Origin: Cladocopium goreaui
Taxonomy: Eukaryota > Sar > Dinophyceae > Suessiales > Symbiodiniaceae
DNA length: 64,000 nt
NCBI GenBank assembly: GCA_947184155.2
Contig: CAMXCT020006368.1
Span: 100,001 to 164,000, forward strand
Reading direction: 5' to 3'
Positions 49,170-64,000 of this stretch are shown here, piece after piece. Each line of letters opens with the position of its first letter. Position 1 is the first letter of the stretch. The notes beneath the pieces are model-generated. The model searched no databases and had not been told where the DNA came from. It saw only the letters and a list, made by a program, of their open reading frames with translations. The translations under genes were made by a program, and so were the position numbers.

Positions 49170-49301
49170 TATCTAAAATTGTCCAATAATGTGAACAATT
49201 TGATCCTTGTTCTGGATGTTATCTCAATTAGGTAGTACCCTTGTTACTGGTAGCCGATGGTTGCCATGCGGAATCACACAACGCAGCCTTTTCTCTATGC
49301 G

Positions 49302-49317
49302 CTTGAGCCATGATGGC
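49302..49317 (-). other. Spliced-leader-like sequence
   Basis: Minus strand GCCATCATGGCTCAAG matches 14 of the last 16 bases of the dinoflagellate spliced leader and contains an ATG followed by 25 open codons. Could be a relict of a trans-spliced, reinserted RNA downstream of the retroelement. Confidence 0.35.
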
Positions 49318-49494
49318 GTCCCGTGCAATTGTTGTTTACACGTCACATGTCATACATGTGGTATCGCTGAGTTCCCTTTGACACCCCCCATGTCCGTGGT
49401 GTCCTTCGGACCACGGGCACGAGAGAAGGAACTTTGAATTAAAAGGGGTTCTGCTGCTCGAATTACGCCTATTTACATAAAACCTGCCATTCGG

Positions 49495-49880: not shown

Positions 49881-50570
49881 TTACTGCTCACGGCGGACTT
49901 TCTTCCACTGAGGTGTTGTTGGAGATTTCTCCCAACCTGCCGCACGTTTCGGAGCAGCTTTCGGCGGTGGAGGCTTCGCAGGTGGTGCTTTAGATGGTTC
50001 ATAGGGCTTCGGCATGACCTTAGCCTTTGGTGCACTGGCCGAAGATGATGACGCTGAACCAGTATCTTCAGGTCTCCTTGAAGGCTGTGCTGAGGACTTG
50101 GCTTTCGCGTCTGCCGTGGCACGCTTGGCGGCGGCACTGTCCCCGACTGCTTTGAATACCTCACTTACCACTTCGTCCCCCAGGTTCGGAGCCATCTTCA
50201 TTTTCATTTCGGACTTTCCCCTCATCGCCTCGGCCTCAGCCAGTTGAATAGCATAAGCCATCTTGCTGACGAAGTTGTGAGGTAATGGAATACCGCATTG
50301 TTGGGCAGCAAAGAGTAGTTCCACCCTTTGTTCCTTTTCTCTCAGACTCAGATATACCGAGAAAGCTGGGAGTTCAATGCAGTTGGGGAAGCCGTGGCTC
50401 CCGGAACGAAAGAAGGTGTATGATTCATATTCGGGAAAGGTTCCCTTCAACAATAGTCGGAGAAAGTTGCTGATGGTCACCCTCATCTCTTGTTTCTCCT
50501 TCGCATCACCCTGCATCTTATTCATTGGCATGAGGAAACCTAAGGACTCGGGAGTGTATATACCCGGCAC
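49881..50570 (-). CDS. C-terminal frame of the retroelement polyprotein
   Basis: 229 codons, +1 relative to the preceding ORF and overlapping its last 53 bases; begins at GTG, so it is most likely a shifted continuation, not an independent gene. Reads IYTPESLGFLMPMNKMQGDA, then a mixed region (FLRLLLKGTFPEYESYTFFR), helices rich in Ala/Lys, and a Ser/Ala/Pro/Lys tail ending KSPTTPQWKKVRREQ. The basic proline-rich tail may bind nucleic acid or direct nuclear import; no domain recognised. Confidence 0.6.
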   Translation of the reverse strand: MPGIYTPESLGFLMPMNKMQGDAKEKQEMRVTISNFLRLLLKGTFPEYESYTFFRSGSHGFPNCIELPAFSVYLSLREKEQRVELLFAAQQCGIPLPHNFVSKMAYAIQLAEAEAMRGKSEMKMKMAPNLGDEVVSEVFKAVGDSAAAKRATADAKAKSSAQPSRRPEDTGSASSSSASAPKAKVMPKPYEPSKAPPAKPPPPKAAPKRAAGWEKSPTTPQWKKVRREQ

Positions 50571-53500
50571 ATACGAGAAACTCCATCATCTTTTCGTAAA
50601 CCTCTAGAGTTTTGATGACAGGCATCATCATGTTTCTCGGCCGCCCAGAGTACATCTTTTCTCCCTCTGACCATGAGTTCTTCTTCCCTTTCTCCTGAAA
50701 GAGTTCGTCCAATTCCTGCTCAGTCGGCCGCTTGAGGTTGCCATCCTGATCTTCGCCTGTGTAAGGGCAGAAGTCGTCCAGGTCCAGTCGGACTCGCTTG
50801 GTGGCTGTCATCAACGCATAGTATTCCTCTGGGGTCAGAGTGACTCTCTGATTGTAGTAGAGTCTGAACATTGCGATGATCTTTGACATCACAGCGTTGT
50901 CATACAAGTGAGCCGCGGCCTCGGAGACATCATTGTTGACAAGTCCGTCTCCTGGCAAACCCTTGCTTCCACGTGCAAGATTCTTGGTCCATACTGGCAG
51001 GTTTGATGAAGGTTCATTCTCAGGTTCGACGTCCATTTCATCATCGTCTTCCTCTTCAACGATCTCGTCGTCTTCCTGCTGAGTCTCTTCCTCCTGATCC
51101 ATTTCCTCGTCATCGCCTTCGTTGTAGTCGACCTCGTCAGGATTGAAGCCATAATCGTTGGATTCAGATACGTTTTCCTGTGCTTGATGGACCGTATCCT
51201 TGAACAACGATTCTTCCTGTCGACGAACCTCCTCATCGAGCTCTTTCTTTGTGGCTTCATCTTCATCGTCCTCAGGAGCTTGTAGTCTATATGGTCGAAT
51301 TCCACAGCTCTCAAGCTCTGTCCAGCAAACTAGACATACTGCCAACTTCGTCGGCGTCTCATTGAGGATGTGAGGGCAATGACGGCAACCTGAAGTTTGC
51401 ACCCTCTTGCGTTCGACGATGTAGTCGATTAGCTTGATGCGGGCGATGTATTGTTCTTGTCCGCCAGGCTCAATGAGATTGTTCCTGAATTGGTTGACGA
51501 TGTTCATTGCATCCATGGTGATCTCGTCATACGGTTGCTTTTCGGCGTCGATGCATTGACTTGCGACCCTCAGAATGGACTCCTTGGTGGCGACAGTTCT
51601 TGACTTGACAGTGCCTGACCGGACTACCTGGTCGTCGCCCGACGGAACGAACAACCGGAGCCATGTCTTGTTGTTTTGATCCTTTGGATCTTGAATCCAT
51701 CCTCCTTTGATCGCTGAGAACGGGATGATCTTTGGTGAAACGATCTGTCCCGAATCCGTCAATCGACCACCGTACTCCACCATCAGGGTTTCGGTCGGGA
51801 TAAAGAGGCAGATGTAGTCCCCCTTTCGCGTGTCAACGCTCTTCGTGATGGTCCATGATCTATGATCCCACGGCACATATGGGTTGAAGAACGTAAACAT
51901 ACGATGACCCTCTCCAAGACCTCCCGGAATTAATCCTTGCCTCCAAATGCTTCGGAGGTTGGTCTTCTTCGTGATGTGGAAGCAAACCGGCAGTGACATG
52001 ATGGTATTGGGCGCAATCGGATGCGAGAGCAACGATGACATCAACAAGACATCATCTCTGGATGATCCTTCCTTGTGCCCCGTTGGGGCGCGAACTGCAA
52101 CTGGATAGAGCAACAGCCCCTCGTCTGGAATGTGCGTGTCCGCGTTGACTTTGTTGTCAATGCACGTCAGGCTGCTGCGATCAATGTCCTTGTTGATCCC
52201 GAACGCCAAGACTTGTTCACGTACACGGCGTCCATATCGGGCACAGTGGAACATGATCTTGAACAGCAATGCCATGCGATTGCTCGCCTCATTGACATTC
52301 CATGCGCTTTGATCGTTTGCTCTTCCCTTGGGGGCGAGAAAGACATGCGGCCAACGTTGGTACTCATGTCTCCAGATTGACTCACATTTGAGTACTTCCT
52401 CAATGGGTACCCAGCCGGCGTCGTCACAAAACAAACTTTGTGATTCTGAGGCCTTTCCCACGTTGTGTCGTAGGATCCTGTTCAGTGATGTGCTCACCTT
52501 GTCCTCATAGCTGTCGAGCCGATTACCGGTTTCGAAGCGATAGTTTGCCGCATACTCCACACCGCCAAAGTAGAAGCAGTTGAAGAAGTGGGCTCCCGTC
52601 GTGGGGATGATTTTCAAGAAACCATCTTGCGGCGCCTCGATCCGTTTGTAGAAGGGTTTTCTGATGTTGTTGTCGGAGTAATTTGCGAGGAACTCTGGTA
52701 CTGACCAAGTGTCACCTCCTCCTCTGACAATAGCGTCCCGGATCACTTCGTTGAGATCAACGACGTTCTGGGGTCCCAGCTTGGTAACATCACGCCCTTC
52801 AATGCAAAACCTACCATACTCATCGAGGTCTCCAACTTCGGACATAGTCCTGATGCTGTCGTACCACTGGTACTCACTAAACCTCGGTTTTGTAGGCTCA
52901 TCCGTTTGCCCTGACCCTTCAGTAGCACCTGATCCGTCCTTTCTGTGCTCAGGCGGTTCCATCTCGACGTCATCAGATGTGGGACTATCAGCCTCGAGCG
53001 ACGCTCGGACGGCCTTTAGCACCTTTCTGACTTCATCCTTCTTCTCATGTTCACATTCAAGGTGACCATGTTTGGTGCTACCACAGTACAAGCACACATT
53101 GACATCCTCAGAGACAGTGAAGAGTTTTCCCAACGCATCCAGGAGTTGTTGTTTTCCGGAAATCTCTGAGTCCCTAACCACATCAGTAGGGTCGTTTGCT
53201 GGTTCATCAGCTTCCTCCTCCCCAGGGTGAGTCGGCGACTCGTCACCTGGCTTGGCATCAGCATCAACGCCCATGCTGGCGTCATCCCCTGTGATATGGT
53301 GCTTTCTTCGATACTGAGAGAAGACCTGATCTTTCTCCCACTCCGTGAGACAGTTGAAGTTGATCAACGACTCATACCCGGGGATTGCGTGGATGATCTT
53401 CATGACCTTTTCGGCTTCTGCAGTCTGCAGAGTGCAGTCAAAAGATCCTCGTCTCTTGTCGTTGATGGTGCTTGTAGTTCTGGAGGTTGATGTGAATTGA

Positions 53501-55956
53501 GCCAATGCCTTCTCCAATCCGTTGAGGTACTCAGCAGGATCAACGCTGGCATTGAAAACATTCACAACTCCTTTTGCCATGTTTGCCACATCCAAGACAC
53601 CAAGCCAAAACTCGATGATATCCCCAGTCTTCTCGGCTGATGCACGGGAGAATCCGAAGATTTCGTTCCTTTCCTTCACCTCAGGAACAGCGACCTTCTC
53701 GAAGAAGTCCTTGTACGCGACATTTCCGCAATCTTTCGTGACCCTGTAGACTAGGAGCCACTTCTTCGCGACCTCATCATAGATTCTTTCGCGGTAGATG
53801 CTGAATTGTTTGCCGCGTCCATTCCGGAAGATTTCCAGAGCTTGTCTCTTCGATACCCTGACTCCCCCCATGTGCGATAGAGACTTCATCAAGTGCTCCC
53901 CGTACGGCAATAAAGCATTTGAAATCAAAGAAGATGCCGTGAATGTAAGCCATGTCTGAAATCCTTGATTGATGTCAACAATGTCGACACCAAGATCCTC
54001 GAATGCGACCTTCAATCTGGCCGCCAGGAGCAAGACGGATTTCCTGGCTTCCAATGTGGGAGCGGAGCGCTTGTAGTGATCTTGGGTGTTTGCAGAGCAG
54101 TTGATGCAGTGGGTCGGTTTCACCTGGCATGTTTCAATCTCATCCATCGTCACCGCATTTCTGCAGCATCCGCATAAGATGTCAGAGCTCTCCTTGTCGA
54201 TGGTAAACCACATGCATCGATCTGATACAACTGGTTCCAGTTCATGAGTGCCGACCACTGGTTCAACCCATCGGGTCTTAAACCTCTTGCCCTTTGTGAA
54301 CCTGTTGATGGCGGTTCCAGGGCCTCGTTGGAAAATGGTTGTGTCATCGGTCGCATAGTCACCTGGGGTCATTTCGCCACTTGCGATTTTGAATGCCTCA
54401 GTTGGGCCAGTCATGTCCTCCAACACCTTTGTGTTGATACCGGATTCATCAGGTTTGAATGCTCCTTCATTGAGTACGGATACATACTCCCTGTTTGTGG
54501 CACACATGAGGAAAACTCTTTGGCGAAATAGGTTCTTCTCGATGACAGACCAAATTGCAGTCTTTCCCAGGGTCCCCCTTTTGGTCGTGCTCAATATTGG
54601 GTACTGTCTTCCAAATTGGGAATACATCGACCGCCACATTCTCTGGTCAGACGTCACTAAGATCCCCTGGAGCCTCATCTTCTCGATCAGCTCAACTGCG
54701 ATTCTTGATGTGACGGAGTCCATACCGTTGAACATGGAGTCGTTGTTGATGGCGACCATCAAGGGTCGGGATGTGACTTGATCAAGGTCGATCACTCCTT
54801 TGACAAATTGATTCTTGAAATCATTCTCGAGCATTACACAGTGGGGTGGCTTTTGTTCATGGAGGAACTGCAATGATAACCAAAGATGAACCGTTATCTG
54901 GCCATCATCGATGGCATCCGTGTTGAGATGTTGCTTGACCTTATCAAGCGTGTCGAGAAATTGTTGAAGTGGTCGTTCAGATTCAGAATCATGGATCTTG
55001 AAGACTTCAACACTCTCCCATCCCATGTCAGCTAACCCCATTTGGATGCCATGTGTCCCACTTTGGGTTCCCACGCGGAACATCAAATCAGTGATGAGGA
55101 TGGTCGTCCCAGCCCTGAAGTCACCGGCCAACATGTCAACCTCCCTTGGACCGCTCGGTGCTTCAATGATCCTGCATGCAAGCGGGTTCGTGATCATCTT
55201 CTTGATTCGGCCCAATTCGGACTGGTTGGCGACGTTCACGTCATGGTGTCCAAGCATCATCAGCATTCCTGCCGTTGACAGGTAGCATCCAGTCCGCGTC
55301 AACATGTACTTGCGGACGATATGGCTATAGCACCTAAGCCAATCCTTCTCAGAGATGGTGGATGCTGTGTCCTCAGTCACGACCCCCGGATTGCAGACTC
55401 CGAAGACCATGCAGGCGTAGGCAGTCACTCTCCTCAAATACTGGGCCCAAGGTGCTGATCCCGATGTACTTGCAGCCTGAGCTGCGGGGTCTTGGACAAT
55501 TGATAACAGAAAGTGGTCCCGTTCGTCCATCCAAGCAGACGTGATGAACTCTGAATTCCTTTGATCGGGCATTGAGGATGTCCTGAAAAGATACCCATTT
55601 GGCACCCGAGGAATTACCCAGTCCTTTCTGGTAGGAGGTGTCGATGGCCTTGGCTTCGAAGGTGGAGCCTTCCGTGGTGGTGCGCTCCCAGCTGCAGAGC
55701 TGGAACCGTCGCGTCCACCGGCGGTGGAACTGCTAGGCCCAGTCTGTTGTTGTTGTTGCTGTTGCGCCCGCTGCGCATCGGCTTCCCTTTGTTGCTTGTC
55801 GTTCATCATTCTGATTGGTGAAGGATCCCAACCTGGATGATCCGGTTGACTTGGAGGGTTTCTGCCGTCTTTCGGCATCAGCGGGATGTCCCAGCCATCG
55901 ATGTGGGAGACTTCTGTGGCCCCTTGGCCCATCTGGGTGGTGGCTGTGGTCGTCAC
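50518..55956 (-). CDS. Retroelement polyprotein, second part: CCHC knuckle and Tpt1/KptA-like domain
   Basis: 1812 codons in the same frame as the RT part, separated from it by one TGA plus ten codons; starts at a GTG, so no true initiation site. Residues 1-110 are Gln/Ser/Pro-rich. About 595-621 has CGCC...C...HCINC, a possible Zn site. About 955-968 is CLYCGSTKHGHLEC (CX2CX4HX4C), a Gag-type knuckle. About 1150-1430 resembles RNA 2'-phosphotransferase Tpt1/KptA: LNRILRHN...DDAGWVPIEEVL, then CFHITKKTNLRSIWRQGLIP and GG..GHRMFTFF. Tpt1 removes splice-junction 2'-phosphates using NAD+. The middle of the domain is diverged and the usual QGHS-type motif is not clear. About 1510-1545 has GCRHC...CLVCW, another possible Zn ribbon, followed by a very acidic stretch. 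Confidence 0.75.
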   Translation of the reverse strand: MTTTATTQMGQGATEVSHIDGWDIPLMPKDGRNPPSQPDHPGWDPSPIRMMNDKQQREADAQRAQQQQQQQTGPSSSTAGGRDGSSSAAGSAPPRKAPPSKPRPSTPPTRKDWVIPRVPNGYLFRTSSMPDQRNSEFITSAWMDERDHFLLSIVQDPAAQAASTSGSAPWAQYLRRVTAYACMVFGVCNPGVVTEDTASTISEKDWLRCYSHIVRKYMLTRTGCYLSTAGMLMMLGHHDVNVANQSELGRIKKMITNPLACRIIEAPSGPREVDMLAGDFRAGTTILITDLMFRVGTQSGTHGIQMGLADMGWESVEVFKIHDSESERPLQQFLDTLDKVKQHLNTDAIDDGQITVHLWLSLQFLHEQKPPHCVMLENDFKNQFVKGVIDLDQVTSRPLMVAINNDSMFNGMDSVTSRIAVELIEKMRLQGILVTSDQRMWRSMYSQFGRQYPILSTTKRGTLGKTAIWSVIEKNLFRQRVFLMCATNREYVSVLNEGAFKPDESGINTKVLEDMTGPTEAFKIASGEMTPGDYATDDTTIFQRGPGTAINRFTKGKRFKTRWVEPVVGTHELEPVVSDRCMWFTIDKESSDILCGCCRNAVTMDEIETCQVKPTHCINCSANTQDHYKRSAPTLEARKSVLLLAARLKVAFEDLGVDIVDINQGFQTWLTFTASSLISNALLPYGEHLMKSLSHMGGVRVSKRQALEIFRNGRGKQFSIYRERIYDEVAKKWLLVYRVTKDCGNVAYKDFFEKVAVPEVKERNEIFGFSRASAEKTGDIIEFWLGVLDVANMAKGVVNVFNASVDPAEYLNGLEKALAQFTSTSRTTSTINDKRRGSFDCTLQTAEAEKVMKIIHAIPGYESLINFNCLTEWEKDQVFSQYRRKHHITGDDASMGVDADAKPGDESPTHPGEEEADEPANDPTDVVRDSEISGKQQLLDALGKLFTVSEDVNVCLYCGSTKHGHLECEHEKKDEVRKVLKAVRASLEADSPTSDDVEMEPPEHRKDGSGATEGSGQTDEPTKPRFSEYQWYDSIRTMSEVGDLDEYGRFCIEGRDVTKLGPQNVVDLNEVIRDAIVRGGGDTWSVPEFLANYSDNNIRKPFYKRIEAPQDGFLKIIPTTGAHFFNCFYFGGVEYAANYRFETGNRLDSYEDKVSTSLNRILRHNVGKASESQSLFCDDAGWVPIEEVLKCESIWRHEYQRWPHVFLAPKGRANDQSAWNVNEASNRMALLFKIMFHCARYGRRVREQVLAFGINKDIDRSSLTCIDNKVNADTHIPDEGLLLYPVAVRAPTGHKEGSSRDDVLLMSSLLSHPIAPNTIMSLPVCFHITKKTNLRSIWRQGLIPGGLGEGHRMFTFFNPYVPWDHRSWTITKSVDTRKGDYICLFIPTETLMVEYGGRLTDSGQIVSPKIIPFSAIKGGWIQDPKDQNNKTWLRLFVPSGDDQVVRSGTVKSRTVATKESILRVASQCIDAEKQPYDEITMDAMNIVNQFRNNLIEPGGQEQYIARIKLIDYIVERKRVQTSGCRHCPHILNETPTKLAVCLVCWTELESCGIRPYRLQAPEDDEDEATKKELDEEVRRQEESLFKDTVHQAQENVSESNDYGFNPDEVDYNEGDDEEMDQEEETQQEDDEIVEEEDDDEMDVEPENEPSSNLPVWTKNLARGSKGLPGDGLVNNDVSEAAAHLYDNAVMSKIIAMFRLYYNQRVTLTPEEYYALMTATKRVRLDLDDFCPYTGEDQDGNLKRPTEQELDELFQEKGKKNSWSEGEKMYSGRPRNMMMPVIKTLEVYEKMMEFLVCAGYIHSRVLRFPHANE

Positions 55957-55986
55957 ATAGTCTCGAATACAGGAGAATGTCCTGTT

Positions 55987-58900
55987 TCATTTCTCCACCT
56001 CTTCAAACATGCCCTGGTCGGCCCTTTCAATGTTGTAGCCCCCCAACTCCCACAGGTCGTCGCGGAGGTCAATGGCCTGCTTCATTCTGACCAGATCAGT
56101 CTTGATGATCCCGCTCAAGTATGACATGGATTTGAAGTTCTCCAATCGTGTCATCCACTCATGTAACATCTTGGAAACCATGAGGATGGTTTGCAGATGG
56201 ACAACGGCTGCCGTCCGCTCTAAGCTGAGATCATAACTCATCGACATCCAGTCCTCCAGGACGTTCTGAATGATGATGGTCTTACCCTGGCTGCTGGTCG
56301 CTCTGGCATTATGACGTCGGAGTGCGTAGCCGAGGCTATAGCTCTCCTCGTACATGATGTTGACCAGATACTTGATGCGGTTTTCAACTTCACTTGGCTC
56401 AGGTTCCTCTCTCCGCATCGCTTCGAATGACCAGCTTTCCCACTTCCGACGGGCAATCTCCTCGAAGTTCGTCCTCTTCCGGATTTGGTAACATGAACTT
56501 CCATAAGGAGGGTATGTCTGATTCAAGGATCCAAGGTTTGTTGGGCTTGTATTCGCGATCTTGTCTCGCAGTTCTTTAACCGTGATTTCCTTGGTAATCA
56601 TGCTGTTCTGCCCGGTGTAGTGGTCTTTGAGGGTATCCCATAGTTCATCTATTCTAATCGCACACTCGAAGGTGCACAAGAGCTGCATGATGCTTTTCTC
56701 ATCTGGATTTCTGGCGGCCCCTTCCACCAACTTTGATAATCGGGCCCCTTTGTCAATGAAGCTAGTGACAGACATCTTCAACTCATTCTCGTTGGTCACT
56801 TTTGACAACATTTTCATGAGCAACCTGATTGCATGAGTTACGAATGCTCTGCCACTTCTGTCCATGACAAAGGCTAAGGCTACAACGACGGGAGGAGAAA
56901 TCTTCACTCGATTCAACCATTCGTCAATGTCCTTATCCCTGCAACCCCTGAAGTTTGTCTCCTCGTAGGTGGAGAATGGAGCGGGGAGGTTGTGCTCTTG
57001 GCTCTTCTCCTTGATGAGGGACAAAGTTGATTTCAGTGAGCCAATACCTTTGGCCGCTGATGGGATCACGAGGTCAGTTCCAGCCATTGCGAAGACCGAG
57101 ATGAGGCAAGGAGAATCCGGATCCGTCAAGGTGCACCCACGACGCAGGTAACAGCCTAACTTCACCTTCAATTTACCTCTAACGGGATCCGGATCTGCCA
57201 ATAGCGATCCACGACGTGGATACAGCCTCAGCTTCACCTTCACACCGCCTCGTTGGGTGATGAAGTTAATGAGTAGCTGTTCATTGATGGTCTTCTCATT
57301 AACATCGCATCCATAGTCATTCACAATGACACATGCACATGACTTTGACTTATGGTGATCTACCTCATCTGATACCTTTGGTCGATATCTCCTTCCATAA
57401 GCGTTGTTGATCAACATTTGGTTTGTGACACCCCGAAGAATACATCTGACAATCTTCTCGGTATATAATTGTGTTGCACGTGTTTCTCTACCCGCACATT
57501 GACCGTGGATGTGTGAGCCATCACATTTTGCATGCAAGTCAAAGAATTCGACCCCCCACGATACGATTCTCCATGGTTTCTTGATGGCGGTCCCAACATC
57601 TTTGAATTTTGATGTCAAACCATACATGCATCCATCAAAGTCATGCACAGTTGATTGGGTCCCATTAATCAGAAACTTCATTCTCTCGTCATTCCAATAG
57701 TCGCATCCCCGAGGTAGTTCCAACAATGCCATGGCATGCAAGACATGTACACGTTGCAGACACAATGTGAACTCTTCCCATAGCTCCCAATACAGAAACG
57801 CTTTCATTCTGATGTTGTGTGCTGTGACCTCACTCACGTTTTTGTTCAAACGATTCCATGGTGAACCACCGGTGCAAGGTCCCGCAAAGAACACGCAGTC
57901 ACTAGGGCCCCTGATGCAACGTCTCCATTTCGCCCTTCCGTAGTTGGACATCAGGTTGTCATCTTCGGTAATTGTGACCACATGCATCATCTTGAACCGA
58001 CTTTGTGTGTGAATCTTTGTGATGATACTTTGCGTTTCAGCACACATGAGGAGCAAACATGGGACATCATCTTTCATCTCATAGAGGTCGAGTGATATGA
58101 CAATGTCATCGAGTACTTTTCCGAGAAAATCAGCATAAGATTGCTTGAAATGATATGTCAGAGTCTTCCCATTCTTTCGGTGGAGTGTCATCTGAATATC
58201 CCAATCATTTTGTTTTCTGGTCTCATGCTTCAGCTTGTAATGATGGGCTATAAACATGTCATCCAAAGGAATGATTTTCATGTTTCCATCAAGGATACAG
58301 GTGACCACAGTGTCCTGGCACGATGCCCTGTCCTCCACATCAGACCCGCTGTCCATCACATCTTTGATGTCTGCGTTGGATATGATCTTGAAGGTAGTGG
58401 TCCCTGTCCAAAATTCATTTCTTTTATTGGTCTTCTCGATGTTATTCCCCGCCAATCTCCATGAGTCGTGGATTAACCTCCCACTTGACTGAAACACTTG
58501 GTTGGTTTCCCGTTCATCTCTAAACCGTCTCAGCTTACATGGTAGGAAGTCAGCCTCTTTGGGGGTAAACATCTTTCTTCTCGGTACCTTATGCACTCTC
58601 GTCAACGTAGTTTCATCCTTCCATATCCATTCATCTTGATCACATTCATTTTTGGATATCTTCTTTCCTTTCCTTGACGAAGTCATGGGGTTATAAGCTT
58701 TGTCCCTTGACACTCTACCAGCAATTACATCACCACCGGCAAAGATAATTCGTCGTCGATTGGGATCTTTGTTTTCTGTTGGATATGGATCATCGTTGGG
58801 GTCCCCCGACGGAGGAAATCCCATTGGAAGACTACCCCATCCAGAACTCCCCCCATGAACAACTCGAAGAAGCGTGTTGATCACCCGAGCAGTACCACAA

Positions 58901-61900
58901 GGAGCTGCATGAATGGTTGTAGGTTCATTTCCATGGGATTGATGACAAAATAGTTGACCCACCCCCACAGTTAACTGAGGATACTTCAGGACTGGAGTCT
59001 GACGATTCGGCACCGCGGCAGCATGGAGCCCTTGTCGTGCTGTTGACGCCGGGTGTCCCGGTGAGACAATGCCGGCTGATTGCCTAGTAATCACCGACGG
59101 CGATATACTAGATTGACACGGATGGTATTGGAAACAAGCTCGTTCTACCCATTGATCAAAACGGTCTTGTTGTTGAACGGGTGGAACTCGATCCTCAACC
59201 TTGATCCATTTGCCATGAGAAAGTATCCAGGTACTTCTCAAACAGTCATGGGGCAATGATACACCAGGTGGTCGTTTTCTGAAGAAGGTTGGCGTCTTAA
59301 CAACCAGTATGGGATCCATGCCAGGTAGTTGTTGTACTTGTTCTTTACCAGAAAGACCCTTCTGATACACCTCAGGTGGTAGAATAGGTATTTCGGTATA
59401 CGGAAAATTTGGAACATCTTGAGTTTTGGTTTGAAACACTTGTCGGACAGTGGTATCGACATCCGTGGTGAGTGAGACCATATCGAGCAGATCTTTCGTA
59501 CCGATGTCACCAGGGTCCAACAGGTTGATGAGCATACATGCTCTTTTCCATGCCAACGGATTCTTGAAACCTTTGGTGTGAATGTCAGCGGCCATTTTCG
59601 AGGTCACCTCATACATGAGTACGTAGTTCTCCCGAGTAAAATGTTCATGGAGGGAAGTAATGGCTATGCCATGGGTCCTCTCAAGATGCCGCATAGTGGG
59701 GTTACGACCCGACCTGACTACACCTATCATGCCCTGATTGTCGTCATGGAACAATAATTTGGGCGACTTTCCCGTCAGCGTTTCCCAAATGCTCATAGCG
59801 GGCAAACCCATAGTACGGAGGGTGACATTGGCTGCCACGATTTCAGCCTCAGGCGTTGAATGGCTTACGCATCCTTGCCGTTTGCTGCCCCCGGACAAAG
59901 GAAACCGTGTATGGTTACCCTGAATATGCATATGAGACCCTGAAGTAGATCTCATAGACTGGGCACACCCTGCAAAATCAGCATCAGCAAATAAAGACAA
60001 TGTCAATTCATTGAAATTGTCCCCAACCCATCCGGTCATTCTTTTAGATAGGCTGGAATTCACGTAGCACATCAAGTGATACAACTTTGCATCGTCATCA
60101 ATGGTCCACTTTGTTACATTCCTGGCCAGGGAATTAATGGAACGAAGCAGATCGAAACGAGCAATCCTCGCCGCGTACAGCAGCTTCATCAACACGCTGG
60201 CAGCGTGTGGCGCTAATGCACCTCTCTCAGACTCCCCAGGCGAGACGTCTTCCCCTTGGGTTCCTTGTTCATAAAACAATGGAGCGTCCGGATCAAATTC
60301 ATGAGTACACCATGGACATACCTTCTTATTCTTGGGGTTCCCGGGACATGGTGCTCTCGACTTATGTTTCTTTGTCTCTTCAGGTAGACTTGGAGTGGAT
60401 ACGTGTTTCAGCTTCGTATCTTTTCCAACAATGTCCAAGTACTTCTCAACCGACAGTTTCAACAAACCTTCCATGTCATAGGTCATGGTTGACACCGGGG
60501 TACCATCATGAAGTTTGGTAGATCCCTTTCTCAAAACACAACCAAGATAGAGTCCTAAGTCAGTCTCGGGCTCGATGTTGAGTTTTGATCTGAGCATCTC
60601 CCAACCCTTAGTCAGGTTCTCTTCCGGTCCTGCCAGCTTTAAGTCGTCTACATAGATGACAAGAAGTAACTTCAGTTTCTTATGAAAATACATAGAAGGC
60701 CATTCTTCTCCAACAGGGACGAAGTCGAGTTCTCGAACTTTCCGATCACAATGTTGTTCCCACATTGTTCCCGAATCGCGGTGGCCATACAAAGCTTTAA
60801 CCAATCTTACAACTGGCCTATGGAATTTTCGAATATCGACATCGTCTGGCCAAGCATCTTCGGGTAGCTCAACCCAACATGGTGGTCCGGTTAGTTTTGC
60901 TTGAATGTATGCTTGAATAGCGTCGGCAAGTTTTACATTATGGCCCGGAAGACACCCATAGAAATCAGCCCATCTCGATGCCTCAAAAGTAGCTGGAGAA
61001 TTGCCCAAGTCCTGGAAGAAAGCAGCCTCCCAGAATTGGTTCTTCACCTGATTACCAAGCAAGACACCTCGGCCTTTGAATTTCCTACTAGGGCTTCCTG
61101 CAGGCAACTGGTAGTTTTTCTCAACACAAATTCCATGTACTCTGGCCATGTGAACCTCTGTCTTGTTTGCTTTTGCTTCTCGAACAACGTCATCATATTC
61201 TCTTATAACACTGAAATCATAGACTCCAGCAGCGTGTTGACCTAACCATTCCTTCCTCATGGCCTTACGTGCGTCATCGTTTTCCATCATTTCCTTTCGA
61301 CCAACAGGCCTTGCAACTGCAGTGTTGAACATCTTGTTGATACTGATTCCATCACCATTTGAAGCTGTCTTTTCTCGATGATCATCACAATGATTAATGC
61401 ATGGCATGCATGGGAATGGATGGAAAACATCACTGAGGCCACGAGCGTCTTGGGGTACTTCGTCGGTGTTGTGCAAGGTCGCAGCAGCCACCACTTTCCC
61501 CTGGTTGAAGTCATACACTTTGTCGTTGTTCCAAGTAGCCTTCGGCCCCTTGCCATTCTCGATCTCAGACCATTCGTCCCAATCCATCAAGAAGTCATCA
61601 TCATCAGGTACATCAGTGTCTGATAGATCAGAGTTGCATGGAGCACTGGCAGGAATCCCTCTCCCGACGAGAGAAGTGGATCCTTTTCCATATTGGAAAA
61701 CTTTGCCCCTTCGGACGTAGTCTTGGGACATGGCTACTCCAGAAACATGATCGTCTTTGCCTTCTTTCTTGGAAGATTTGGCTTTCTTGGCTTCTTTCTC
61801 TTTCTTCTTTTCTTCTTTTCTCTTTGCTCGCTCTTCACTCTCCTTGATTTTCGCATCGCTCTTCTTCTTTTCTTTTTCAGCTTCAATCTTCTTCTCTTCG

Positions 61901-62208
61901 GCCTTAGCGATCCCCTTTCTGACAGTCGGTGACATCTTCCTCCACTCGTCAGGGGTATACTTTGATGGCCTAGGAGTAGTTGATATTCTGCGAAAACCAC
62001 GTTCGTCAATCCGATATGGATGACCGCGAGCATTGAGCTTCACCCATTCACCATCGTCATTCAGGTATACAACCCCATCCCCAGCCTTTCCAACGGAGTA
62101 ATGTTCTGGCCCTCCTTCTGGAACATGAAGGTCTGGATGTGCAGGCTTGTCGATACCTGGTGGTCCCATTCTTTCAGATATTGCATCAAAATGTCTTTCA
62201 GCTTCCAA
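55987..62208 (-). CDS. Retroelement polyprotein, first part: Copia RT and RNase H, plus methyltransferase-like region
   Basis: 2073 codons, open from about 62287 but without an ATG (first listed codon TTG), so N-terminal Gag/PR/IN are missing. Residues 105-150 are a Lys/Glu coil. Reverse transcriptase about 290-600: motif A LADAIQAYIQA (Asp429), VRLVKALYGHRDSGTMWEQH, motif C YVDD (519-522). RNase H about 730-890: FADADFAG, STPEAEIVAA, HDDNQG and the Copia signature ADIHTKG; all acidic catalytic residues present. Beyond residue 900, about 1,170 residues are unusual for Copia. At 1437-1449 DCVFFAGPCTGGS matches the PC motif IV layout of C5-cytosine methyltransferases, followed by LLELPRGCDYW and DFDGCMYGL; motifs I and VIII were not found, so the enzyme call is tentative. 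Ends MFEEVEK-TGA. Confidence 0.85.
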   Translation of the reverse strand: MEAERHFDAISERMGPPGIDKPAHPDLHVPEGGPEHYSVGKAGDGVVYLNDDGEWVKLNARGHPYRIDERGFRRISTTPRPSKYTPDEWRKMSPTVRKGIAKAEEKKIEAEKEKKKSDAKIKESEERAKRKEEKKKEKEAKKAKSSKKEGKDDHVSGVAMSQDYVRRGKVFQYGKGSTSLVGRGIPASAPCNSDLSDTDVPDDDDFLMDWDEWSEIENGKGPKATWNNDKVYDFNQGKVVAAATLHNTDEVPQDARGLSDVFHPFPCMPCINHCDDHREKTASNGDGISINKMFNTAVARPVGRKEMMENDDARKAMRKEWLGQHAAGVYDFSVIREYDDVVREAKANKTEVHMARVHGICVEKNYQLPAGSPSRKFKGRGVLLGNQVKNQFWEAAFFQDLGNSPATFEASRWADFYGCLPGHNVKLADAIQAYIQAKLTGPPCWVELPEDAWPDDVDIRKFHRPVVRLVKALYGHRDSGTMWEQHCDRKVRELDFVPVGEEWPSMYFHKKLKLLLVIYVDDLKLAGPEENLTKGWEMLRSKLNIEPETDLGLYLGCVLRKGSTKLHDGTPVSTMTYDMEGLLKLSVEKYLDIVGKDTKLKHVSTPSLPEETKKHKSRAPCPGNPKNKKVCPWCTHEFDPDAPLFYEQGTQGEDVSPGESERGALAPHAASVLMKLLYAARIARFDLLRSINSLARNVTKWTIDDDAKLYHLMCYVNSSLSKRMTGWVGDNFNELTLSLFADADFAGCAQSMRSTSGSHMHIQGNHTRFPLSGGSKRQGCVSHSTPEAEIVAANVTLRTMGLPAMSIWETLTGKSPKLLFHDDNQGMIGVVRSGRNPTMRHLERTHGIAITSLHEHFTRENYVLMYEVTSKMAADIHTKGFKNPLAWKRACMLINLLDPGDIGTKDLLDMVSLTTDVDTTVRQVFQTKTQDVPNFPYTEIPILPPEVYQKGLSGKEQVQQLPGMDPILVVKTPTFFRKRPPGVSLPHDCLRSTWILSHGKWIKVEDRVPPVQQQDRFDQWVERACFQYHPCQSSISPSVITRQSAGIVSPGHPASTARQGLHAAAVPNRQTPVLKYPQLTVGVGQLFCHQSHGNEPTTIHAAPCGTARVINTLLRVVHGGSSGWGSLPMGFPPSGDPNDDPYPTENKDPNRRRIIFAGGDVIAGRVSRDKAYNPMTSSRKGKKISKNECDQDEWIWKDETTLTRVHKVPRRKMFTPKEADFLPCKLRRFRDERETNQVFQSSGRLIHDSWRLAGNNIEKTNKRNEFWTGTTTFKIISNADIKDVMDSGSDVEDRASCQDTVVTCILDGNMKIIPLDDMFIAHHYKLKHETRKQNDWDIQMTLHRKNGKTLTYHFKQSYADFLGKVLDDIVISLDLYEMKDDVPCLLLMCAETQSIITKIHTQSRFKMMHVVTITEDDNLMSNYGRAKWRRCIRGPSDCVFFAGPCTGGSPWNRLNKNVSEVTAHNIRMKAFLYWELWEEFTLCLQRVHVLHAMALLELPRGCDYWNDERMKFLINGTQSTVHDFDGCMYGLTSKFKDVGTAIKKPWRIVSWGVEFFDLHAKCDGSHIHGQCAGRETRATQLYTEKIVRCILRGVTNQMLINNAYGRRYRPKVSDEVDHHKSKSCACVIVNDYGCDVNEKTINEQLLINFITQRGGVKVKLRLYPRRGSLLADPDPVRGKLKVKLGCYLRRGCTLTDPDSPCLISVFAMAGTDLVIPSAAKGIGSLKSTLSLIKEKSQEHNLPAPFSTYEETNFRGCRDKDIDEWLNRVKISPPVVVALAFVMDRSGRAFVTHAIRLLMKMLSKVTNENELKMSVTSFIDKGARLSKLVEGAARNPDEKSIMQLLCTFECAIRIDELWDTLKDHYTGQNSMITKEITVKELRDKIANTSPTNLGSLNQTYPPYGSSCYQIRKRTNFEEIARRKWESWSFEAMRREEPEPSEVENRIKYLVNIMYEESYSLGYALRRHNARATSSQGKTIIIQNVLEDWMSMSYDLSLERTAAVVHLQTILMVSKMLHEWMTRLENFKSMSYLSGIIKTDLVRMKQAIDLRDDLWELGGYNIERADQGMFEEVEK

Positions 62209-62289
62209 CTCTCCTTCAGTCGGTTCTTGTGGGACCTTCGACGAAGGTACATTGGTGTCCCTTGCTACTTGTGGACTTATACCTTGACT

Positions 62290-62505
62290 TTAAGTAGACT
62301 TGCCGATGGCATAAGTCTGGAGATAGTGTGATAAGTAAAACTAAGTAGGAGATTTTTTGGTGTTACTTATAAGTTTGTTAGCTACTTATAAGTAGGGATA
62401 AGTATTGTAAGGTGGTGGAACATGAAAAAGTTATTTTTACTTAGCTACTTGTGTTTTTCTTGGATTTTGAAGGTTTTACTAAGTAGGTTTTTTTTTATCG
62501 TTTTT
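62290..62505. promoter_or_regulatory. Divergent spacer between retroelement and retrogene
   Basis: AT-rich, with repeated ACTTATAAGTAG, ACTAAGTAGG and ACTTAGCTACTT blocks and T-runs before the retrogene. May hold promoter function; dinoflagellate promoters lack a reliable consensus, so no site is named. Confidence 0.3.
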
Positions 62506-62510
62506 GTATG

Positions 62511-62532
62511 ATCGTAGGCGTCATGGCTCAAG
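62511..62532 (+). other. Relict spliced leader fused to a start codon
   Basis: The 22 bases ending CATGGCTCAAG match the dinoflagellate spliced leader at 17 of 22 positions without gaps, including CGTAG and TGGCTCAAG. A T-to-A change turns TTTTGG into CATGG and creates the ATG at 62523. Confidence 0.65.
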
Positions 62533-63854
62533 TTTTGAAAGAAATAGTTTCGACCCAAAAGTTTTTGCATGGTGTAAAGACCCTACCTCATTACGATGAG
62601 CTGCAGCGAAAACAATTGGAACGACTCAAGCCGATTGTGCAGAAGCACGTCATCTCTGTGGAGATGGCGGGTCGCATCATGGAGTCCTTCTCCGATGTCT
62701 GGAGTGTAGGAATTTTAGATGAGTTGAAGGCATTGGTTGCCGAGCAAAGTGAGTCACAGGAGGATCTGGCAAGCCGTGCTGGCTTGCAAGACTTCACCGC
62801 TTTGCCGAACTATTTATCGAAGGAATGGTGGCAGAAATTAGAATCTCGTGCCGCTGGAGTTTATAAACTTGAGCTCTTGACCAATTTTGCTGCCACTTTG
62901 GGTCTGAAGAATCCAACGGAGGCGTCCTATGGCGCTTTGGTGGCATTGTCCTTCTATGCGGACAATGTTGAGGCGTGGCCAGAATCGGACCAGGTGAAGC
63001 TCTTGAGGGCACATAAGGAGCGCATGCGCCGTTGGCTGAATAAGGCAGCAGCTGCCAGTGTCCGTTTGGAAATTTTGCCCGAGAATCCAGAGGAGATTCC
63101 AGTTTCTTTGTTTGCTGCTGCATTTCCGACGGGATTGATTCCGGGTTCCCCGGAAATTATGGATAAAGCAAGGTTGCGGCGGGTCATCGCTGATTTCCGT
63201 TTGAGGGCACCTAAGGAAGGCATGTCTTCCATGTCAGTGTTGCCGGCAAGTGGTCAAGTTGATCCTGCTGCTTTGGTGCATGCTGCAGCCACCTTAGTGG
63301 CGCGTGTGCAGACACAATCTCGACAGACCGAGGTTGACATACCAGGCTTTCGGATGTTGGAGCCTCGGGACGCAAAGGTGACCGTGGCAGCGCCTGCGTT
63401 GGCTTTGGAAGACACGAAGCCTGTTGCTGCTGCCACGCAGCCCTGTGAGGCAAAGGAAGAGCTTCCGGACAAAGTCGAGAGCGAGACCTGCGGGCCGCAA
63501 GCTGCAATCGCTGCTTTGCGGGGTGAGTTGAAAAAGAAAGGAAAAGGAGTGCCCGGAAGAAATGCAGAGGTAACGCCAAGCAAGAAGCCTGCCATACGTT
63601 CGAAAGCCAAGTGCAAGGGTATGGCAAGGCCTGCCGCTTCTGTGAAAAAGATTTTGAAGCGTCCCGCTGCTGTTGCGGCATCGTCTTCCGCGGGAAGCAT
63701 GTCGGAGGGGGGATACAATGATCGCAGGGAGACCTTGTTGAAGAAGATCCCAAAGGATGTATTGCAGCGATACAAAGGTGGTTGCTCCAGGTGCTATCAT
63801 CGCGCCTTTTGCACTCTGAGCTGTTGGGCGCGCGGGGGTTATACAAATGATTGA
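62523..63854 (+). CDS. Intronless retrogene-like protein, lysine-rich with Cys motif
   Basis: 443 residues from the ATG inside the spliced-leader relict (MAQVLKEIVSTQKFLHGVKT); an in-frame ATG at 62508 lies upstream of the relict and is not preferred. Residues about 1-220 are helical and Leu-rich (RKQLERLKPIVQKHVISVEM; LSKEWWQKLESRAAGVYKLE). About 250-370 is low-complexity Ala/Lys/Glu, with KKILKRPAAVAASS, a basic tract frequent in dinoflagellate nuclear proteins. The C-terminus carries CSRCYHRAFCTLSCW (CX2CX5CX3C), a motif I recall from many uncharacterised dinoflagellate proteins. Single exon in a genome where neighbours have many introns: consistent with recycling of a trans-spliced mRNA. 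Function unknown. Head-to-head with the retroelement, 220 bp apart. Confidence 0.75.
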   Translation: MAQVLKEIVSTQKFLHGVKTLPHYDELQRKQLERLKPIVQKHVISVEMAGRIMESFSDVWSVGILDELKALVAEQSESQEDLASRAGLQDFTALPNYLSKEWWQKLESRAAGVYKLELLTNFAATLGLKNPTEASYGALVALSFYADNVEAWPESDQVKLLRAHKERMRRWLNKAAAASVRLEILPENPEEIPVSLFAAAFPTGLIPGSPEIMDKARLRRVIADFRLRAPKEGMSSMSVLPASGQVDPAALVHAAATLVARVQTQSRQTEVDIPGFRMLEPRDAKVTVAAPALALEDTKPVAAATQPCEAKEELPDKVESETCGPQAAIAALRGELKKKGKGVPGRNAEVTPSKKPAIRSKAKCKGMARPAASVKKILKRPAAVAASSSAGSMSEGGYNDRRETLLKKIPKDVLQRYKGGCSRCYHRAFCTLSCWARGGYTND

Positions 63855-64000
63855 CAAATGAGACATTTGACGCGTTCTCCGTGAAAGGGTGCTTTCATGA
63901 TGTGTGGATTTCATTTTGTCATGGCACATGATCACATGTCTTTATATAGTATGGACAGAATGTAATACATGTAATGTCTCTGCTCGGCGTGGGTGACAGC

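Follow-up and report, generated by a model that had tools for sequence, protein, structure and literature searches.

A 64,000-nucleotide stretch of the Cladocopium goreaui genome (contig CAMXCT020006368.1, positions 100,001 to 164,000; hereafter the window) holds a decayed copy of a giant Ty1/Copia long terminal repeat (LTR) retrotransposon family of this dinoflagellate, and the family's polyprotein very probably includes a homologue of the RNA 2'-phosphotransferase Tpt1/KptA downstream of RNase H. The anatomy of the element, as described below, is close to certain. A sequence-only reading of the window had proposed a Copia element with a Tpt1/KptA-like domain, and this is borne out by LTRs, target duplications, Pfam matches, an Arg-His-Arg-Arg tetrad, purifying selection and a recurrent domain order. 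The motifs it named, including YVDD of the reverse transcriptase (RT), ADIHTKG, the run after RNase H, the CCHC knuckle and LRHN, are all present on the minus strand, as is every open stretch of the copy.

The family is exemplified by an unbroken relative on contig C1831, where a single frame of 6,048 amino acids (aa) lies between identical 185-bp LTRs with an ATAAA target duplication at each side. Its protein reads, in order, Gag, CCCH fingers, protease, integrase, RT, RNase H, a region named here after its PCTGGS motif, a CCHC knuckle, the Tpt1 domain and a tail. Pfam recovers one CCCH finger, an aspartic protease (0.003), RVT_2 (4e-7; 30.3 bits, just under the cut-off) and PTS_2-RNA, which is the Tpt1/KptA family; the second CCCH finger, a coiled coil, Gag, integrase and RNase H were recognized by eye. 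About 3,200 residues follow RNase H, the Tpt1/KptA-type ADP-ribosyltransferase domain among them. The claim that about 3,000 more residues continue in the RT frame holds for C1831, where they form one frame, whereas in the window copy the run of about 3,200 residues is broken twice: the stretches 62289-55987 and 55986-50518 share one frame with a single in-frame stop (55987-55989) between them, and a frame change between 50585 and 50518 puts the stretch 50585-49881 in another frame. The CCHC knuckle reported after the RT is real and kept in C1831, with the CCCH fingers lying upstream of the protease. An upstream element on contig C5803 is open for 3,319 aa, from inside RNase H to the same C-terminus, at 91-92% protein identity to the window copy, and further matches of the family sit in frames of 6,048-6,068 aa.

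These elements share with Ty1/Copia the TG..CA LTR ends and 5-bp target duplications (seen in C1831, C5803, C1597, C5598 and C2768), a purine tract, the protease-integrase-RT-RNase H order and an RVT_2-type RT; the protease match is weak (0.003-0.01, upstream of the RT in C1831 and C1597), and integrase and RNase H were assigned by eye. Pfam gave neither a tyrosine recombinase nor an apurinic/apyrimidinic (AP) endonuclease, whether in the window (E<=1) or in the C1831 and C1597 proteins (E<=0.1). Unlike Ty1/Copia, the elements extend about 1,650 (C1597) to 3,200 (C1831) residues past RNase H and carry a Tpt1 domain in that extension; they also have short LTRs (135-185 bp) on elements of 12-19 kb and CCCH fingers upstream of the protease.

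The same arrangement recurs across the 1.166-Gb assembly, the one genome to which all counts refer. RNase H of the window family has at least 150 matches (150 scored of 1,693 candidates), the PCTGGS region at least 144 (144 scored of 2,572) and Tpt1 at least 108 (108 scored of 987), that is, more than 100 scored matches per region. Of the listed RNase H matches, 78 share a contig with a scored PCTGGS match (the remaining 72 of the 150 fall outside that set). In 75 of these 78, PCTGGS follows 1.16-1.34 kb downstream, on the same strand; none is listed for the other three, whose partner may have been missed among the matches listed. PCTGGS also lies upstream on the same strand in all 62 listed Tpt1 matches on shared contigs, at 4.4-5.2 kb in 56 of them and at 4.0, 4.3, 5.2, 7.0, 12.7 and 23.0 kb in the remaining six. 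Frames of at least 5,000 aa contain 15 of the 144 listed PCTGGS matches, and frames of at least 5,800 aa contain 7 of the 108 listed Tpt1 matches. The window copy, broken twice and split by another transposon, could on its own suggest a chance fusion, or an ordinary Copia element read through into unrelated flanks. However, 75 of the 78 testable RNase H matches continue into PCTGGS instead of stopping amid unrelated flanks, and in the unbroken copies examined the LTRs lie outside the extension. LTR-to-LTR copies and the recurrent order rule out fusion and read-through for the window family, leaving them a probability of practically nil.

Tpt1 is also carried by a second Copia group. Its members at another place on C5803, on C1597 and on C5598 encode 4,026-4,028 aa and have identical LTRs of 170-173 bp, and the member on C2768 encodes 3,924 aa and has 135-bp LTRs at 99.3% identity; the 5-bp duplications are AGAAG, GAAAG, ATATC and GTATT, respectively. 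Pfam finds CCCH/Torus, weak RVT_2 and PTS_2-RNA in that order, plus a weak protease in C1597. Identity to the window family is 42% in RT, 33-36% in RNase H and 27-28% in the PCTGGS/PCVGGS region, and the Tpt1 domains of C2768 and the window family align at 28% identity over 114 aa (E 1e-5). By eye, a TSDS...WSGNE stretch at residues ~2790-2890 of the C1597 protein resembles an SGNH-type hydrolase. Tpt1 occurs in other Copia families too, in a DIRS-type element and beside an RVT_1-type RT. Locus L035 pairs another Copia RT (RVT_2, 45.4 bits) with Tpt1 in broken frames. The DIRS-type element (C2112:523692-537206, L026-L028) lies between 100% identical split direct repeats, a layout that we take to be that of DIRS-order elements; by eye, its 2,622-aa frame contains an RT-like LMDD region and RNase H, and profiles add Tpt1 and a recombinase-like end, the latter a weak match to tyrosine recombinases (PHROG 216, 0.0015; Pfam, 0.034). 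The stretch before its Tpt1 bears a faint likeness, by eye, to a degenerate DNA methyltransferase (DNMT). At L036 (C691), an RVT_1-type RT (21.3 bits; cut-off 29.6) and Tpt1 lie in overlapping but different frames; the region upstream has 20 matches, in frames up to 5,154 aa, with Tpt1 known for the L036 copy. C1316:33243-34067 belongs to this small L036-type family with an RVT_1-type RT.

Across the assembly, PTS_2-RNA (PF01885) has at least 150 matches (150 scored of 1,496 candidates). Those listed comprise 3 at 174-180 bits (one possible host gene and two bacterial by eye), 22 at 92-101 bits, of which the six examined (L004-L008 and C2112, L005's place) are DIRS-like, and 125 at <=64 bits; 14 sit in frames of 4,020-4,039 aa, and the window's contig, C5841, has no entry among these 150. 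By eye, the Tpt1 genes on C1 (L003) and C5523 (L002) look bacterial, planctomycete-like, and are probable contamination.

Several lines of sequence comparison identify the domain. Against the curated PTS_2-RNA cut-off of 26 bits, the window family scores just below (23.3 in the window, 23.4 in the upstream C5803 element, 24.0 in C1831), and the remaining loci score above: 51.0 (C1597), 45.5 (C2768), 47.9 (L038) and 60.2 (L035), which places four other Copia-type loci at 45-60 bits, then 52.3 (L036) and 94.8 (C2112). In a 14-row alignment, the equivalents of Clostridium Tpt1 Arg68, His101, Arg121 and Arg139 (residue roles as given in excerpts of PMC6333775) are invariant, and those of Arg18 and Thr103 nearly so. 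The tetrad is complete in the window copy, C1831, L035, L036 and the two DIRS rows covering it; in the L037 row its first two residues fall outside the aligned part. When the PDB was searched with a six-row profile of Copia domains alone, built without canonical Tpt1, every match was a Tpt1 structure: 8 distinct sequences reached E<=1, with 6e3a at the top (6.1e-6). Compared by hhalign with three canonical Tpt1 sequences, the window pair reached a probability of 44% (E 2.3e-4) and the eight retroelement rows and two DIRS rows 99.7% each, against 0.2% for the unrelated alignment of the PCTGGS region, the Tpt1 rows having been cut from the 14-row alignment, where they were already aligned together. 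A profile of 79 bacterial Tpt1 sequences gave 8.8-14.4 bits for other Copia-type domains (mostly in the NAD lobe), 38.5 for L036 and 71.0 for C2112, the best of 300 shuffled proteins reaching 2.5 bits. On these alignments, the family assignment appears right and the window branch very divergent, with long insertions in its domain. A 33-row tree, whose terminal branches reached 9.6 changes per column, was not used to count Tpt1 captures; an approximately unbiased (AU) test of a single retroelement clade (p 0.029), which came with a long-branch warning, was likewise set aside.

Ratios of non-synonymous to synonymous substitution (dN/dS, by NG86) are point estimates from few pairs, given without intervals. 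For Tpt1, three pairs of the C1597 group give 0.029, 0.024 and 0.036, and the window family gives 0.077 and 0.029; C2768/L038 stands at 0.120 and C2112/L006 at 0.079. For RT the ratios are 0.021, 0.021, 0 and 0.031. The PCTGGS region gives 0.052-0.125, stretches of spacer or tail in the C1597 group 0.125-0.155, and whole frames 0.067-0.092, both in the C1597 group and for C1831 against the upstream C5803 element or the first open stretch of the window. Tpt1 is more constrained than the frame average in the C1597 group.

The domain is, by a narrow balance of the sequence evidence, probably catalytically active. It would be released proteolytically from the polyprotein and act as an NAD+-dependent enzyme on nucleic-acid phosphates. 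Host nucleases and ligases would cut or rejoin element or primer RNA, leaving 2'-phosphates, and the domain would strip these, so that RT is not blocked and 3' ends can prime. The chain up to an active enzyme working on nucleic-acid phosphates during replication stands at about even chances; 2'-phosphate removal itself is doubtful, although it is the favoured role, with end capping a near rival. The element may evade or repair host RNA processing, as the sequence-only reading had suggested. KptA has been described as a phage tool for cleaning 2'-phosphate RNA ends, and KptA in viral polyproteins has been suggested to process viral RNA ends (both in excerpts of PMC9503650). End capping, which is unlikely and slightly more so than 2'-phosphate removal, would have the domain mainly ADP-ribosylate element RNA or cDNA at 5'-phosphorylated ends, capping them against nucleases or sensors. 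Tpt1 is found in both Copia and DIRS-type elements, and these share replication intermediates with phosphorylated ends, which counts for capping. In vitro, human TRPT1 and a Streptomyces KptA cap 5'-phosphorylated RNA, and TRPT1 also caps DNA, but capping by TRPT1 needs the full tetrad (PMC6582358, in part), of which the C1597/C2768-type rows lack the His; nor is a partner hydrolase found among the Pfam matches of the polyproteins. A catalytically dead domain with an RNA-binding or structural role in the particle is about as improbable as capping: loss of the tetrad His in C1597/C2768-type rows and the long insertions of the window-family domain would fit it, but the window family, L035, L036 and both DIRS rows that cover the tetrad retain all of it, the NAD-lobe His and the Arg121 and Arg139 equivalents are invariant in all 14 rows, and dN/dS is low in most pairs.

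Several points weigh against the favoured reading. The window-family proteins score only 7.5-8.3 bits with the bacterial profile, in the N-terminal lobe alone; since their Pfam scores also fall under the cut-off, their membership in Tpt1 leans on links that pass through the other families. Purifying selection is general over the frame and not confined to Tpt1, and in C2768/L038 the domain (0.120) is under no tighter constraint than the parts around it (0.075-0.152). DIRS elements are not known to use tRNA primers, so primer healing cannot be a role common to all these elements. All the evidence comes from one genome. Gly replaces the tetrad His (His19) in the four C1597/C2768-type Copia rows of the 14-row alignment, which weighs on activity: in human TRPT1, Ala at any tetrad position abolished 5'-end ADP-ribosylation (PMC6582358, in part), while in Runella Tpt1 a His mutant slowed step 2 only threefold (excerpts of PMC6333775). 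As a broader proposal, tentative and short of probable, NAD+-dependent processing of ends or junctions would be part of retrotransposition in this host and would account for Tpt1 within or beside the RT polyprotein in several unrelated retroelement classes (three Copia lineages, a DIRS-type and an RVT_1-type), possibly with a second, unrecognized nucleic-acid-modifying domain after RNase H.

The PCTGGS region forms a conserved domain, in which the sequence-only reading had seen a short cytosine-methyltransferase-like motif; no profile test supports a methyltransferase. Pfam and PHROGs at E<=10 gave no methyltransferase family for 7 aligned members (four weak families, each in 1-2 members, best E 0.018). 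A PDB profile search found nothing at E<=1 and, at E<=10, only two ferredoxin reductases (E 2.2 and 2.5). Among phages, tblastn at E<=10 returned 12 records, none annotated as a methyltransferase and one without annotation, and 10 stretches of viral contigs fitted a search pattern, of which 0 were relatives. Compared by hhalign with C5-methyltransferases (M.HhaI plus 80 fetched sequences), the alignment scored 18.75 and its reverse 17.4, and 60 column shuffles had a mean of 14.8 and a maximum of 25.5, with 5 of 60 above 18.75; the C1597-type half scored 14.7 (60 shuffles: mean 15.4, maximum 28.3). These nulls are a lack of support and not a disproof, because the query alignment is shallow (effective number of sequences, Neff, ~1.3 for the C1597-type half), with few sequences and little power. 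That the element also encodes a working cytosine C5-methyltransferase is thus unlikely but far from negligible. Pro-Cys and a following Glu (ELP/ELS) are kept between families at 24-27% identity, the P, C and E columns are invariant in the 7-row alignment (their assignment to catalytic motifs was made by eye), dN/dS is low, as given above, and real DNMTs are known in dinoflagellate long interspersed nuclear elements (LINEs) and DIRS elements (PMC5890265, in part); against this, besides the database searches and the shuffles, no GxG S-adenosylmethionine (AdoMet) motif is recognizable by eye. DNA-methylase matches in the assembly number at least 125 (of 2,685 candidates, 123 were scored), which agrees with the DNMT abundance reported for Symbiodinium in excerpts of PMC5890265.

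Features of the window copy and of the DNA transposon nested in it are listed in Table 1. The limits 49881..62290 are those of the open frames, and the 3' LTR, the only LTR located for this copy, ends at 49190. The nested transposon (~8.6 kb, inverted ends ATTGGTGTCCC/GGGACACCAAT, GTAC duplicated) is inserted at 62251 and runs past the window to C5841 ~170830 (L025), so the Gag-protease-integrase part lies outside the window, ~8.6 kb further on. For its plus-strand open frames (455 aa at 62487-63854; 352, 428 and 713 aa in L025), no Pfam score exceeded the cut-off. Alignment of the window copy to C1831 gives two DNA blocks at 89-90% identity, with the 8.6-kb transposon between them. Because synonymous divergence from C1831 is unequal (~0.31 in the first open stretch, 0.84 in the second and ~1.1 around Tpt1), the copy looks like a mosaic of two lineages. 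Dispersed repeats of ~105 bp (TACCCTCTGGTAAACTAACATAGCTATGG...), in both orientations, are numerous in the window (at 1591, 8525, 15535, 18573, 30144, 40555, 42477, 45413, 47690, 48756 and others) and in the flanks of other loci, and look like non-autonomous elements.

Table 1. Features of the window copy and its nested transposon (window positions).
Feature	Position	Strand	Remarks
3' LTR of the window copy	49190..49383	-	TGTCAAAGGGAACT...GTTCACA; located by alignment to the 185-bp LTRs in C1831 and in the upstream C5803 element
C-terminal polyprotein tail, 234 aa, ends ...QWKKVRREQ	49881..50585	-	shifted frame in the window copy; joined to the rest of the protein without a break in both relatives (C1831, upstream C5803 element)
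Second open stretch, 1,822 aa: regions without assignment, CCHC knuckle, Tpt1 domain, acidic C-terminal region	50518..55986	-	
First open stretch, 2,100 aa: linker, RT, RNase H, PCTGGS region	55987..62289	-	element sequence starts ~62250
Copia reverse transcriptase	60526..61323	-	Pfam RVT_2 4.4e-8; 42% identity to C1597 RT
YVDD RT motif	60660-60628	-	
RNase H	59521..60222	-	by place and motif, without Pfam match; 35% identity to C1597
AADIHTKG motif near RNase H end	59592-59569	-	
PCTGGS region	57310..58107	-	27-32% identity to the same region of C1597, C2768 and L038
DCVFFAGPCTGGS / DCVFFAGPCTGGSPWN motif in PCTGGS region	57900-57853	-	
ALLELPRGCDYW motif in PCTGGS region	57729-57694	-	
KCDGSHIHGQC motif in PCTGGS region	57528-57496	-	
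CCHC zinc knuckle CLYCGSTKHGHLEC	53053..53094	-	kept in C1831
Tpt1/KptA-like domain	51637..52503	-	Pfam PTS_2-RNA 7.4e-5; 14-row alignment
Tpt1 Arg-His, LRHN	52476-52462	-	
Tpt1 Arg, INKDIDRS	52197-52174	-	
Tpt1 His/Thr, CFHIT	from 51984	-	CFHITKKTNLRSIWRQGL spans 51984-51931
Tpt1 Arg, EGHRMFTFF	51912-51886	-	
Tpt1 Arg, VDTRKG	51837-51820	-	
Nested DNA transposon, part inside the window	62251..64000	.	splits the element between integrase and RT

After the LTR, C1831 and others carry a conserved GGTTATCAGCCGTAG, the putative primer-site motif. The complement of its 19-nt form occurs 329 times in the assembly, against 0 for the control, and a search for the tRNA anticodon arm that it implies gave none. 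Among the motif matches listed, which cover contigs up to C1185, the motif lies 7-13 kb upstream of 30 of the 37 Copia-class Tpt1 matches, and it lies within 20 kb of 0 of the 11 DIRS-like matches (92-101 bits). Half-tRNA priming as a common reason for Tpt1 was rejected on these two grounds, the missing tRNA arm and the DIRS-like matches without the motif. The 21-nt motif that we take to be the dinoflagellate spliced leader has 172 exact copies in the assembly, against 0 for the reversed pattern. In the C1831 LTR (L032, L034), GCCACTTTGGCTCAAG has a single mismatch to the final 16 nt of this leader, a fit that 0 of 2,000 shuffles equalled (the window LTR has two mismatches); it may be what remains of a trans-spliced transcript that the LTR incorporated.

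That dinoflagellate retroelements capture enzymes, and that KptA occurs in RNA-virus polyproteins, is already known. SymbioDIRS-Dnmt3 and SymbioLINE-Dnmt (de Mendoza et al. 2018, PMC5890265, in part) are likewise dinoflagellate retrotransposons with a captured nucleic-acid-modifying enzyme in the coding region; they have DNMTs in LINE and DIRS elements, whereas here Tpt1 is found in Copia elements and in the DIRS-type C2112. Excerpts of that paper give the Copia superfamily no DNMT domain, and 'Tpt1' is absent from its main text. A Beihai picorna-like virus and a Botrylloides leachii nidovirus also have KptA/Tpt1 built into the polyprotein of an RNA-based replicator but are positive-strand RNA viruses (PMC9503650, in part), and 'retrotranspos' and 'retroelement' have 0 occurrences in PMC9503650. 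With Tpt1/KptA/TRPT1, the domain shares the tetrad (in the window family) and the NAD-lobe His/Thr and Arg; it differs in being highly divergent, with insertions, inside a retroelement polyprotein, and in lacking the tetrad His in C1597/C2768-type rows. Accessory domains known for LTR elements include a chromodomain and a DnaQ-like exonuclease (excerpts of PMC6338049). No report of Tpt1/KptA in a retrotransposon was found in the literature searched, subscription papers and preprints being outside its scope.

Single open frames of these elements are very long (6,048 aa in C1831), and an RT-only 'Copia' annotation can hide thousands of unassigned residues. If the domain is active, these would be retrotransposons with their own NAD+/ADP-ribose chemistry, which has been reported in phages and a few eukaryotic viruses (PMC9503650, in part), and they make a role of Tpt1 outside tRNA splicing testable. 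That several classes of retroelement in one host carry Tpt1 points to a need common to them, be it 2'-phosphate scars, cleaved tRNAs or RNA end capping, and its place in such giant elements hints at an undescribed NAD-dependent step in element copying.

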